A stretch of 41,841 nt of DNA, taken from positions 1 through 41,841 of the forward strand of contig NZ_JAUXNK010000054.1 in the NCBI RefSeq assembly GCF_030682845.1, in the 5' to 3' direction. Below are positions 7,416-13,367 of this stretch, one piece after another (within the stretch, counting starts at the first letter, position 1; each line of letters starts with the position of its first letter). This DNA is from Methanolobus sp. GTDB taxonomy: Archaea; Halobacteriota; Methanosarcinia; Methanosarcinales; Methanosarcinaceae. A model generated the notes under the pieces. The model saw only the letters and a program-made list of their open reading frames with translations, was not told the origin of the DNA and made no database searches. The translations under genes were made by a program, and so were the position numbers.

Positions 7416-8837
7416 TCAAGTTTCGCTAAGTTCAATTCCCTCAACTGACAATTCACCGGACAGAAGTTTCGGGAGGAGGGTGTCACGAAGGTTGGAGAGT
7501 TGAATATTCTCCTCATCTTTCAAATACCGTTCTTGCATAAAAGGTGCGAGAATTGATTTAGAAAATGTATGAATTAGTGCATTATCTTTTGGTCCGAAAA
7601 ATTCAACTTTAGATATAATATTAAAGGTTATTTGTGGAAAAGTGCCTGATCGAGATTCGGCCATCATTTGTAAAAAATCAATAGTATTCTGCTGTGTAAG
7701 AATAAAATAAAGGAATTTAGAATCAATATCGGCAATTGGCCTTAATACCATTAATTTTGTAGATACAACATGTTCTTTTCCATCAAAAAAAACATAAGCA
7801 AATCTTTTGTTTTCAGGACGAATTTCACTATATAATATATCATCTTTTTGAATTGATTTTTTAGCTTGCCCGGGAAGTGTTTCAACGATTGAGTAATTGG
7901 AATGTAAAACTTTTCCATTTTGAATATCACCAGTATTGAGAAAAATCACTTCGGATACAGTTTTTAATGGATAAGTTTTCGAAATAGTATTTAAGTAATC
8001 ACCAATTTTCTTCACTTCCCACCCCTCCGGCACTTCCCCCAACTCCGCTTCCCACATAGCCGCCGGGAATAACTCAGCAATGCCTTCAAGCTGTACATAA
8101 TCATCCGGCTGTTCAGCCTGCATCTTATCCAGCTCATCATCGGATTTGCCGGAAATGGTACGCATGGCGGCTCGGTTTACGCTTTCGGGATTTTCGTCTG
8201 CTTCAATGGCTGCTATTTTAGCTTTGACTGGGTCGAAATCCACGAACCAGCTTTTGAATATGGCTTGTGCCATGGATTCCAGGGTTTGGTTGATCTGGGT
8301 GTTGAGGGTGATTTTGTCGTCTAGCAAAGCCAATTTGTCTGCGATAGATTTTTGGATATCTAAGCTTGGCTTAGGTACTTCTAATTGCTCAATCATACTT
8401 TTTGTTAAAGCATTTCTAGTTGCACCAGAACTAGCAATTATTAATAATAAATTTTGCATTTTTGATGATGCTAAAAAATACCTCACAAAACGAGCATCTA
8501 ACTCAATTGGATTAACTCTAATTAGAGCTACATGTTGATTAACTCTTGAAGGTAAGTATTCATCTTTTACTAAACAAACACGAGCAACTGAATCACCTGT
8601 GATATTTAGCAGTATATCGTTTTTTTCAACAATAACATTTTTTAAATTGTCTGCTGCTTCCTTATCTATATAAACAAGGCCGTCTGGTCTAAATCCTTCA
8701 TTATACACGTTTTGACTTCTGATAAGGCAAATTTCACCTTCACTGTGATATACACTGTTTCCACCTTTAGGTGTGGCACCACTCCCTATTTTAAGGCAAT
8801 AATTCTTGAGTTTAATTACTGGCCAATCGTTATTCAT
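7416..8837 (-). CDS. hsdS: Type I restriction enzyme, S (specificity) subunit
   Basis: A 473-residue protein with the classic two-half layout. Target recognition domain 1 covers about residues 1-150, starting WPVIKLKNY. The conserved spacer helix follows around 165-215 (LALLDDKITLN, IFKSWFVDFDPVKAK). Target recognition domain 2 begins near 275 (EGWEVKKIGDYL) and the second conserved helix ends the protein (RDTLLPKLLSGEL). It sets the DNA sequence recognised by both methylation and cleavage. The recognition domains are visibly richer in A+T than the spacer, as expected for exchangeable modules. The ATG overlaps the stop of a 39-codon ORF upstream, and GGTGGA lies inside that ORF. Confidence 0.95.
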   Translation of the reverse strand: MNNDWPVIKLKNYCLKIGSGATPKGGNSVYHSEGEICLIRSQNVYNEGFRPDGLVYIDKEAADNLKNVIVEKNDILLNITGDSVARVCLVKDEYLPSRVNQHVALIRVNPIELDARFVRYFLASSKMQNLLLIIASSGATRNALTKSMIEQLEVPKPSLDIQKSIADKLALLDDKITLNTQINQTLESMAQAIFKSWFVDFDPVKAKIAAIEADENPESVNRAAMRTISGKSDDELDKMQAEQPDDYVQLEGIAELFPAAMWEAELGEVPEGWEVKKIGDYLNTISKTYPLKTVSEVIFLNTGDIQNGKVLHSNYSIVETLPGQAKKSIQKDDILYSEIRPENKRFAYVFFDGKEHVVSTKLMVLRPIADIDSKFLYFILTQQNTIDFLQMMAESRSGTFPQITFNIISKVEFFGPKDNALIHTFSKSILAPFMQERYLKDEENIQLSNLRDTLLPKLLSGELSVEGIELSET

Positions 8838-8949
8838 TAATTAATTCCACCAAAAATTGCCTGTACTGGTGTTTGGGTTTTGTCAAAAACTGTGCGTTCA
8901 TTATCGACAGAACATCCAGTGTTTTTTCGTTCAAATCATCAGCAATCAT
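8830..8949 (-). CDS. 39-residue ORF coupled to hsdS
   Basis: An ATG at 8949 opens a 39-codon frame (MIADDLNEKTLDVL through FLVELINE) ending in TAA at 8830. The start overlaps the last 11 nt of the upstream membrane-protein gene, and its stop overlaps the hsdS start (ATGAATAA). GGGTG lies 6 nt before its ATG. It fills the gap between those two genes exactly, with overlaps at both ends, which is typical of translationally coupled genes. The peptide is helical in character, acidic at its start and basic in the middle (TKPKHQYRQ). I recognise no family. It could be a small regulator or assembly factor of the methylase or specificity subunit, or only a coupling leader for hsdS. Confidence 0.55.
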   Translation of the reverse strand: MIADDLNEKTLDVLSIMNAQFLTKPKHQYRQFLVELINE

Positions 8950-9586
8950 CAACTGCACCCATTTTTGTGATTACATTTTTTTTGGATATGTAATGGCTGT
9001 TTCTTTTGTTCCAATTATTAAAAACGACGTAAGGTTCCGACTCTAATTTGCTCCACTCAATTGTGTAGCTATCTTTTAATGTATGTTTTTTAATATTCAA
9101 GAATAAAGGATTGTATTCGACAAACAGATCGAGATTCATTTCTAATTTTCCTTTAGGTCGAATCAAAGTTGTGTTATCATCAAGATTAACTGTTTCAAAC
9201 TGATCTGGAAACTTATCTCTGACTATTTTAGTGTAAAGTGAAAATTGTGCCATTTCCGATGGATTTAAATAATCTAATTCTTCTGTTTTTTCAGCAGATT
9301 TTGCAGGGTCATCTTTTAAACTTATTCTGTAAGTTAATTTTAGTTTCTTTGCTTCATTCTTTGAAACATTAGTTATACGTATATATTGATGCTCAAAATT
9401 GTAGGCAGAGGTTGATTCAAGCACATCAGATAATTCAATTTCATTTTTGAGATTTGAAACAATATGCGTGGACAAAATAGGTTTTTTAGCCTCTCGAAAT
9501 TGGCAAATCAAGATGGATATGAATATTACATTTACAATAATTAACACGATATTGAGCATATTTCCAATGGCATCGAAAAACTGCAT
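8939..9586 (-). CDS. Membrane-anchored protein of unknown function in the hsd operon
   Basis: A 215-residue protein with one N-terminal membrane segment (about residues 9-29, LNIVLIIVNVIFISILI), followed at once by QFREAKKP. The rest is a soluble, beta-rich domain with no cysteine before the last residue and no motif I recognise. Positive charges after the helix suggest that the soluble part faces the cytoplasm. CAGGAG lies 7 nt before the ATG. Base composition is clearly more A+T-rich than the housekeeping genes around the locus. Its end overlaps the 39-codon ORF and it sits inside a type I restriction operon, so it is probably an accessory factor of that system, perhaps membrane tethering or sensing. 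That role is inference. Confidence 0.7.
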   Translation of the reverse strand: MQFFDAIGNMLNIVLIIVNVIFISILICQFREAKKPILSTHIVSNLKNEIELSDVLESTSAYNFEHQYIRITNVSKNEAKKLKLTYRISLKDDPAKSAEKTEELDYLNPSEMAQFSLYTKIVRDKFPDQFETVNLDDNTTLIRPKGKLEMNLDLFVEYNPLFLNIKKHTLKDSYTIEWSKLESEPYVVFNNWNKRNSHYISKKNVITKMGAVDDC

Positions 9587-9696
9587 ATTTGGTCTCCTGA
9601 TACTCTACATGTAACTTTCATTATGCACACAGGGTAATTGTCCAACAAGCCGTTGGACAATTCTGGCGCAAGCTGTGCCAGAACTAGACTTATACC

Positions 9697-11124
9697 TCAT
9701 CTACCAACTACTTCCCATGAACCTGCTTTTGTCGAACCGATCCTTTTCAATAAACCTTCATCCTTTAGTTTTTTGATGTGCCATTCAACGCCTTTGGCCG
9801 TTATACCTGTCAATTCAGCCAATTCATCAGTTGTTATCTGTGGAGTCTGAGATATAATCTCAATTATTTTCTCCTTGGTTTTTTTCCTAGTTTCTTCCCT
9901 AGTTTCTTCCCTAGTTTTCTCCGACGCTTTTTCGGAGATGATATCTCTTGTCAGTGGGAAAGTGATCTTGTAGAAATCCACATCGTTTGAAACCAGAGGT
10001 TCGGTATTATAATAGGACTTCCAGCCGGTGAACATTTTATCAAAGCCGGAACCTGCGTTTTCGGAGAGTTTGATGACCCTGAAAATTTTCGTAATAATGG
10101 GATTTCTTGGCATCGTGAAATCTTCTTTCATGATGGACTCGATATCTTTTGGGAGGCTGCCGGGGTTTAAGAACTCTATCCTGTCAAGGAAAACTCTTAT
10201 CCTTGGCTTCATAGGGCTGAAATAATCAGAATGCATCAGAAGATTCACAAGAGCCTCACGAATAGCAACAAGCTGGGGCTGGCTGTCAGTGGCAAAGCCA
10301 TCTGCTCTTAATGTGAACGGAAGGTCGATTTTTTTCATAAGGCGTTCAAAAATGCTGAAATAGAACCGGAACAGATTCTCTTCCTCATAAAGCCTGTAAT
10401 TATACCGTGTAGGAGCATCAGAATAGGACGTACCCATGATCTCAAGATAATCTATCCGAAAATCAGTAAGCATACGGTTAAGGTTATCCTCATTTCCAAA
10501 GACCAGCAAACCACCGATAGTGACCCTGCCATCGACTACAACCTGTAGCTTCTCCAGCAATTGTTCTGTTGACAATTTATTATATCTGTGCTCAGGGTTC
10601 ACATTCTCAAGATAAGTCCTGTAATCAGAAATCGTCCTCTCATCCAGATCATCAATAGTAAACCCGGTAAGTTCCTTATCCTTTAGACCGAACGAAGAAT
10701 CCCTGTACATCGCATCGATCTCAACATCCGTCGCACGTTGATCTCCACTGCCGGTTCGTATAAACGTATTTTTTCTTGAATTGAAATAGACGGGCTTCTG
10801 CTCAGATGCAGGAATATAAAAAGCAAGCACAACTTTCCCATCAAAATCATACTTCACACTTCTGACCCTGATCTTCTGGTTGAACTTGTCCCCCCGAAGA
10901 GCCGTGGTAAAATCCTGCTCTATTCGTTCAGCATCTTCAACACCACTGATCTCAAAACCGCTATTTTGATGCCTAACTCCAAAAACAAGCCAGCCACCAT
11001 TTGTATTCGAAAACGCACTGACTGTTTCAAAACTGCTTTTTGGAATAGAAAATTTTGCCTCCTTCACCTCAAAATCTTCCCACTCAAGCTCTTCCAGCCG
11101 GTTGAACAGTTCCGTTTTATCCAT
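9697..11124 (-). CDS. AlbA_2/ATPase-like regulator with C-terminal winged helix
   Basis: About 475 residues. The N-terminal AlbA_2 (divergent AAA-4) domain is recognisable from ESKEAK-like EVKEAKF, the segment SAFSNTNGGWLVFGV and IRTGSGDQRA (residues 15-145). A GHKL-like ATP-binding region follows (REALVNLLMHSDY, then NAGSGFDKMF). Next comes a charged tetrapeptide-repeat linker (SEKASEKTREETREETRKKTKEK), then a winged helix-turn-helix (DELAELTGITAKGVEWHIKKLKDEG). Such proteins are regarded as nucleic-acid-binding regulators and are often found beside type I restriction genes. The ATG at 11124 is preferred because AAAGGGA touches the upstream ATG at 11133. It is 31 nt or less downstream of hsdM and likely cotranscribed. 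Confidence 0.85.
   Translation of the reverse strand: MDKTELFNRLEELEWEDFEVKEAKFSIPKSSFETVSAFSNTNGGWLVFGVRHQNSGFEISGVEDAERIEQDFTTALRGDKFNQKIRVRSVKYDFDGKVVLAFYIPASEQKPVYFNSRKNTFIRTGSGDQRATDVEIDAMYRDSSFGLKDKELTGFTIDDLDERTISDYRTYLENVNPEHRYNKLSTEQLLEKLQVVVDGRVTIGGLLVFGNEDNLNRMLTDFRIDYLEIMGTSYSDAPTRYNYRLYEEENLFRFYFSIFERLMKKIDLPFTLRADGFATDSQPQLVAIREALVNLLMHSDYFSPMKPRIRVFLDRIEFLNPGSLPKDIESIMKEDFTMPRNPIITKIFRVIKLSENAGSGFDKMFTGWKSYYNTEPLVSNDVDFYKITFPLTRDIISEKASEKTREETREETRKKTKEKIIEIISQTPQITTDELAELTGITAKGVEWHIKKLKDEGLLKRIGSTKAGSWEVVGR
9887..9922. repeat. 12-bp tandem repeat coding the regulator linker
   Basis: Three consecutive 12-bp units (CTAGTTTCTTCC, CTAGTTTCTTCC, then a variant CTAGTTTTCTCC) code for the repeated tetrapeptide in the regulator's linker. 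The 12-bp period keeps the reading frame, so copy-number change would lengthen the linker rather than switch the gene off. Confidence 0.75.
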
Positions 11125-12871: not shown

Positions 12872-13282
12872 TATTCAGGCCTTCATAATTCAAATTGTTA
12901 AATTATTATGATGAAACTTACAAACAGTCACATTATTAATGCAGAATCTATTCGGTTTTAATTATAAGACCTATTCAGGAGCTAAAATTTTGTGTTCCCA
13001 TGACTTTAAATTTACTGAGCAATGCTCCTGAGATTCTATTTTGATTGTATTATGAACTTATTTGAAGATACATACAAACATAATAAACTATCTTCTAAGT
13101 TAGAATATAGTTGTTAATATAAATCATTTACTAAAAATCTTTAAGTCTATTTAATAATTACAGTTTAAATGGCTCTGTAGGAAACCTATTGAAATCATAA
13201 TCTATAGACAAAATTCTGCAAAAATACAAAGCATAGCACTAAAGAGAAGAGATCTAAATGTCTTATGAGAAATAGTTCCTGG
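12872..13282. other. A+T-rich gene-free gap between hsdM and tRNA-Leu
   Basis: About 410 nt with no open frame worth calling on either strand. It must hold the hsdM promoter; on the minus strand a TTATAATTA element near 12959-12967 is the best TATA candidate but lies about 90 nt upstream. The composition is markedly A+T-rich compared with argF or purD. A stretch near 13169 (GGCTCTGTAGGAAACC) resembles insertion-sequence termini but has no partner. Confidence 0.5.
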
Positions 13283-13367
13283 TGCGGGAGATGCGATTCG
13301 AACGCACGAACTCCTACGAGACTAGACTCTGAATCTAGCGCCTTTGACCTGGCTGGGCGACTCCCGC
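13283..13367 (-). tRNA. tRNA-Leu (anticodon CAG)
   Basis: An 85-nt gene with a 7-bp acceptor stem (GCGGGAG/CTCCCGC), a five-pair anticodon stem (CTAGA/TCTAG) around the loop TTCAGAG (anticodon CAG), a long class II variable arm and a T-loop TTCGAAT. The discriminator base is A, as leucine tRNAs require. CCA is not encoded. Its 3' end faces the restriction locus, a common arrangement for islands inserted at tRNA genes. Confidence 0.96.

Follow-up and report, generated by a model that had tools for sequence, protein, structure and literature searches.

Type I restriction–modification (RM) operons are known to carry embedded genes with defence functions, including prrC (PMC3874165), tgvAB (PMC11411939) and darTG2 (PMC12255303). 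The studied examples that were found are bacterial, and few of them are understood. PrrC, an anticodon nuclease with a known trigger, is encoded by an extra gene inside the type IC RM operon EcoprrI and steps in as a back-up once restriction is inhibited. TgvAB and RloF, which are GmrSD-like, represent unrelated genes placed inside an hsd operon; TgvAB is a modification-dependent restriction system, and RloF lies between hsdR and hsdS. DarTG2 is toxin-type cargo of a type I RM system in the RptR island of EPEC, located between hsdS and hsdR at a likely recombination hotspot of the hsd operon. In BREX-type operons, proteins that combine a Schlafen core, a GHKL domain and a winged helix (wHTH) have been described as back-up suicidal effectors (PMC12839542).

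An arrangement of this kind is present in the window, the whole 41,841-nt stretch of Methanolobus sp. DNA analysed here, whose contig belongs to a 2.87-Mb genome. Its minus-strand operon has the order hsdM, AlbA2, p215, (p39), hsdS, hsdR, in which AlbA2 is a Schlafen-GHKL-wHTH protein and p215 a membrane protein of an unnamed family. The extra genes lie inside a type I RM operon, as in EcoprrI, but the proteins are unlike PrrC and a back-up role is only proposed here. The occupied gap is that between hsdM and hsdS, in contrast to RloF, and it holds no domain of the TgvAB type; DarTG2 differs from the window both in cargo and in position. AlbA2 has a domain order identical to that of the BREX effectors, but it belongs to a type I RM operon and the third acid of its RNase site is replaced in its lineage. 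The best reading assigns the locus to a known kind, that of defence cargo embedded in type I RM operons, with p215 as a new cargo family.

Layout of the restriction operon

The operon contains hsdM, hsdS with two target-recognition domains (TRDs) and hsdR as open frames on one strand, and NPPF and DPAMGSGG motifs are present in HsdM. As far as the sequences can tell, the restriction genes look intact. An earlier note, made from the sequence of the window, had placed three accessory genes between hsdM and hsdS. Two of them, AlbA2 and p215, are certain, while the third, p39, is doubtful. The description of the first as a winged-helix AlbA_2/ATPase-like protein was borne out by matches above the Pfam cut-off for all three of its domains, and that of the second as a membrane-anchored 215-aa protein agrees with its single predicted N-terminal membrane helix. 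The coordinates of all features are presented in Table 1. A tRNA-Leu (CAG) gene is located at 13280–13367, about 400 nt upstream of hsdM; tRNA genes are a typical border of inserted defence genes.

Table 1. Features of the operon in the window and TIR genes of sister operons.
Feature	Coordinates	Strand	Basis or remark
hsdR, restriction/translocase subunit, 1057 aa	4170..7343	-	HSDR_N, SWI2_SNF2, T1RH-like_C
hsdS, specificity subunit, two target-recognition domains, 473 aa	7416..8837	-	Pfam Methylase_S in 2 stretches; PADLOC Specificity_I over full length
p39, 39-codon ORF, doubtful gene	8830..8949	-	ORF present
p215, N-terminal membrane helix and predicted beta-sandwich domain, 215 aa, unnamed family	8939..9586	-	
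p215 predicted Ig-like beta-sandwich, residues 38-178	9053..9475	-	AlphaFold2, mean pLDDT 61.5
p215 membrane helix, residues 10-28	9503..9559	-	mean hydropathy 2.9
AlbA2-p215 spacer, 110 nt, with AGGAG ribosome-binding site before p215	9587..9696	-	AGGAG read from the sequence
AlbA2, Schlafen/AlbA_2 core, GHKL (HATPase_c_4) and winged helix, 478 aa	9697..11133	-	Pfam; profile match to solved Schlafens 5yd0, 7lrc
HTH_24 winged-helix domain of AlbA2	9745..9882	-	Pfam E 3.7e-11
HATPase_c_4 (GHKL) domain of AlbA2	9958..10209	-	Pfam E 1e-15
SLFN_AlbA_2 domain of AlbA2	10732..11085	-	Pfam E 5.8e-18
hsdM, type I methyltransferase subunit, 568 aa	11165..12871	-	Pfam N6_Mtase, HsdM_N, E 1.2e-113
Slot TIR proteins of sister operons	L064 11500-11997; L078 9899-10438; L087 844-1401; L096 2935-3477		

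A swap slot between hsdM and hsdS

In type I RM operons of the archaeal class to which the window belongs, hsdM and hsdS enclose a swap slot, in which p215 occurs repeatedly and alternates with TIR and PIN genes. Sixty loci were fetched from a class-wide hsdM search, and their genes were labelled with purpose-built profiles. Among the 54 complete hsdM–hsdS pairs in the class, the gap is empty in 15 and holds extra genes in 39; AlbA2-type proteins, fragments included, occur in 16 pairs and p215 in four. The non-hsd genes lie between the hsd genes on the same strand and are present in some sister operons and absent from others.

The remaining cargo is varied. Pfam matches identify TIR_2 in L064, L078, L087 (where an OLD-like TOPRIM gene follows) and L096, PIN_12 in L105, a YhcG/DUF1016 PDDEXK nuclease in L073 and L116, ORF6N in L110 and Mrr in L081, as well as SIR2 beyond hsdS in L061. 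The TIR, PIN and YhcG nuclease genes in the slot of neighbouring operons point to interchangeable defence cargo rather than to a sensing layer. The TIR proteins occupy the same slot as p215, after AlbA2 in three of the four operons, yet they consist of a TIR domain that ends in a short hydrophobic tail, as against the membrane helix and predicted beta-sandwich of p215, and no sequence kinship between the two was seen. This C-terminal stretch has a mean hydropathy of 1.2–1.6 and is perhaps a weak membrane tail. An unnamed cargo family of 308–367 aa with the motif SLSEYL-PDTPEI was observed in L015, L018, L075, L077, L083, L097 and L098, and no Pfam match was found among the members tested. A conserved ORF of 127–169 aa lies between hsdM and AlbA2 in L013, L014 (10541–11050), L078 (11963–12346) and L087.

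The exchange is visible when sister operons are compared at the DNA level. The window and L064 share 83% nucleotide identity through hsdM and AlbA2 as far as the AlbA2 stop codon, after which p215 stands in one and the TIR gene in the other. Similarly, hsdM shows 94% identity between L016 and L105 up to its stop codon, and similarity resumes in hsdS (97% in part); the p215 gene and a 168-aa ORF of L016 stand opposite the PIN gene of L105. A TIR gene is also found opposite p215 when L014 is compared with L087. Operons with p215 are spread over four separate positions in the hsdM tree, with close hsdM genes from operons without p215 around each. The tree of p215 has weak support, with the window copy on a long branch, and therefore does not settle how many gains took place.

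Distribution of p215

A search of 200 related genomes yielded seven further copies of p215 with 35–45% identity, and profiles added more, so that relatives are known from at least 13 other genomes (33–45% identity where compared). These relatives, of which most in the class are located beside hsd genes, put the p215 reading frame beyond chance. The neighbourhood search that the earlier note had proposed found p215 inside hsd operons of other archaea. The gene order is hsdM, AlbA2, p215, hsdS, hsdR in L017; hsdM, AlbA2 remnant, p215, hsdS in L014; hsdM, AlbA2 remnant, p215 and then the contig end in L013; and hsdM, p215, the 168-aa ORF, hsdS, hsdR in L016, which is devoid of AlbA2. In L015 and L018, p215 accompanies only hsdS remnants and is truncated in the latter. 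The gene is found directly before hsdS; in L015 and L017 the two share 4 nt.

Whether the family is mostly found away from restriction genes, on which the earlier note had staked its proposal, receives a divided answer. In the archaeal class of the window, seven of the eight copies, the window included, lie at hsd genes (two of them only at remnants), L012 being the sole exception. Outside the class but within the phylum, none of six copies (L032, L052–L056) has hsd genes beside it, as judged with the window Hsd proteins as queries and with some flanks short; the neighbours are instead housekeeping genes (for example aroE/valS) or MutS-like genes. In the ANME-1-type genomes L032 and L052, p215 comes immediately after a gene for a MutS-like ATPase. 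The family is sparse, as it occurs in only one of the 19 genera in the class of genome G268. No match was found in viral contigs or plasmids, and a scan of contigs with short peptide patterns, a method that is weak for bacteria, returned archaeal matches only.

The trio as a unit did not hold up. No p39 was found elsewhere, only the window and L017 have both AlbA2 and p215 in intact form, and the partner of p215 varies. A fixed AlbA2–p215–p39 module was rejected in view of L016, which has p215 without AlbA2, and of the many hsd operons with AlbA2 and without p215.

Predicted structure of p215

The membrane helix of p215 is directly followed by the invariant residues Q29, R31, K35 and P36, on the predicted cytosolic side. 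According to the positive-inside rule, basic residues tend to flank membrane helices on the inner side, and the conserved basic residues after the helix are therefore the ground on which the soluble part is predicted to be cytosolic. A second AlphaFold2 model from the family (pLDDT 66.5) has the same strand order, with a helix and then a beta-sandwich. With these low-confidence models, the fold search gave a best Z of 9.6 (106 residues, rmsd 3.1) and a further match at Z 7.8 (123 residues, rmsd 3.4). The matches comprise only generic sandwiches, such as the transglutaminase C-terminal domain, Asf1 and arrestin, with no clear leader, and the models support an Ig-like arrangement and no more.

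The sequence of p215 has no match above the cut-off among Pfam, NCBIfam, PADLOC and PHROG families and no significant match among solved structures. Eight members of the family gave no Pfam match to a TIR or PIN domain, and no catalytic motif was seen in p215.

The Schlafen-GHKL-wHTH protein

AlbA2 contains the AlbA_2 core, HATPase_c_4 and the wHTH in that order, and its close relatives hold the same position in about ten related hsd operons. Relatives with 73–79% identity are among the proteins at this position in other hsd operons. In SLFN13, the catalytic residues are E205, E210 and D248, and both glutamates are essential (PMC5862951). An alignment identifies E17 and E22 of AlbA2 as the counterparts of E205 and E210, and both are invariant. 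The position of D248 is occupied by H55 in the window protein and by Q in near relatives, while the more distant hsd-linked homologues of L017, L075 and L093 have D. An RNase action of AlbA2 appears doubtful because this third Schlafen acid is replaced.

The same internal deletion in AlbA2 was observed in two related genomes (L013, 3788–3826; L014, 10404–10442). In the L014 remnant, the first residues are joined to the winged helix in a 109-aa open frame, and p215 is kept.

Possible roles of the cargo

The whole reading preferred here is that AlbA2 and p215 are cargo of the swap slot and serve as back-up components of defence that are maintained alongside the restriction enzyme, and its probability is estimated at roughly 0.45. 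The part that concerns the swap slot and embedded cargo is, on its own, very probable. A back-up role of p215 is suggested by the known or suspected cell-suicide enzymes that close relatives carry in the slot. AlbA2 would either sense failed or inhibited restriction or serve as an RNase or regulator in its own right. The membrane helix of p215 would hold the protein in the cell membrane, with the predicted beta-sandwich on the cytosolic side, and p215 would work there in the way expected of TIR and PIN proteins in the sister operons, by stopping growth or killing the infected cell. Such a membrane-acting effector step is the preferred mechanism, and it is put forward tentatively. A bolder form of this reading, judged somewhat unlikely, makes p215 the first member of a new family of effectors that act on the membrane and are guarded by archaeal type I restriction systems; it would be switched on when restriction is blocked, would damage the membrane, and would trade places with TIR and PIN effectors from one hsd operon to another. 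Against an effector count the missing catalytic motif, the generic sandwich in low-confidence models (pLDDT 61–67) and the varying partner gene.

Other roles of p215 have to be weighed against these. The earlier note had proposed a layer that senses membrane state or phage entry, which amounts to one unlikely option, a tether or a sensor. In the version closest to it, p215 is a membrane tether, whose cytosolic sandwich would bind HsdS/HsdM (or AlbA2) and hold the restriction enzyme where phage DNA enters. Sandwich folds often serve binding, and that of p215 would suit such a role, as would the membrane helix with conserved basic residues on its predicted cytosolic side; moreover, hsdS is the most constant neighbour of p215, with stop and start codons that overlap in L015 and L017. 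A tether is harder to reconcile with close sister operons that lack p215 and carry TIR or PIN proteins, and with the presence of p215 in other archaea without hsd genes. The latter copies, beside housekeeping or MutS-like genes, mean that p215 need not be a defence protein.

Alternatively, p215 may play no part in restriction, being a passenger of the slot or a membrane protein of housekeeping type that was trapped there. Within the available flanks, no hsd gene lies near any of the six copies found outside the class, and the same applies to the L012 copy within it. This explanation is nevertheless rather improbable, given that seven of eight copies in the class lie at hsd genes or remnants, though such slots make up a tiny part of the genome, and that four separate hsdM lineages hold p215 in operon order. 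In yet another explanation, which is very unlikely, AlbA2 and p215 form a regulator–target pair that controls hsd expression, for example by delaying hsdR, with the wHTH binding the operon promoter. The wHTH of AlbA2, the wHTH gene that overlaps a standalone p215 in L053, and the reduction of AlbA2 to its HTH end in L013 and L014, with p215 retained, would fit such a pair; yet p215 also occurs without AlbA2 or an HTH protein, in L016 and, with another protein family, in L015 and L018.

With AlbA2, TIR, PIN, YhcG nuclease and p215, the slot in methanogenic and ANME archaea supplies a natural set of candidate immune effectors of archaea, and whether an unnamed membrane protein can replace known suicide enzymes becomes testable.

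The 39-codon frame and the AlbA2–p215 spacer

The 39-residue ORF named in the earlier note exists and shares 11 nt with p215 and 8 nt with hsdS. Its codon usage is coding-like: among 151 spurious ORFs, no more than 1.3% reach such a score. Its standing as a gene is weakened by two results: no homologue was found in 100 related genomes, 72,556 plasmids and the fetched hsd loci, and shuffling the region produces an ATG-started ORF of this length in 10% of cases. The similarities of p39 to HTH_70 (E 0.028), AlbA2 and HsdR are weak and near chance level. The proposal of a conserved micro-protein, being without a homologue, was rejected as unproven; p39 could be a genuine small gene, but also a remnant or a product of chance.

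The spacer between AlbA2 and p215 contains two adjacent inverted repeats (9636–9662 and 9661–9683). RNA hairpins were considered for this region and set aside, as the folding z-score of -1.4 against shuffled sequences is not significant. The similarity between the L064 operon and the window ends at the border of this spacer.
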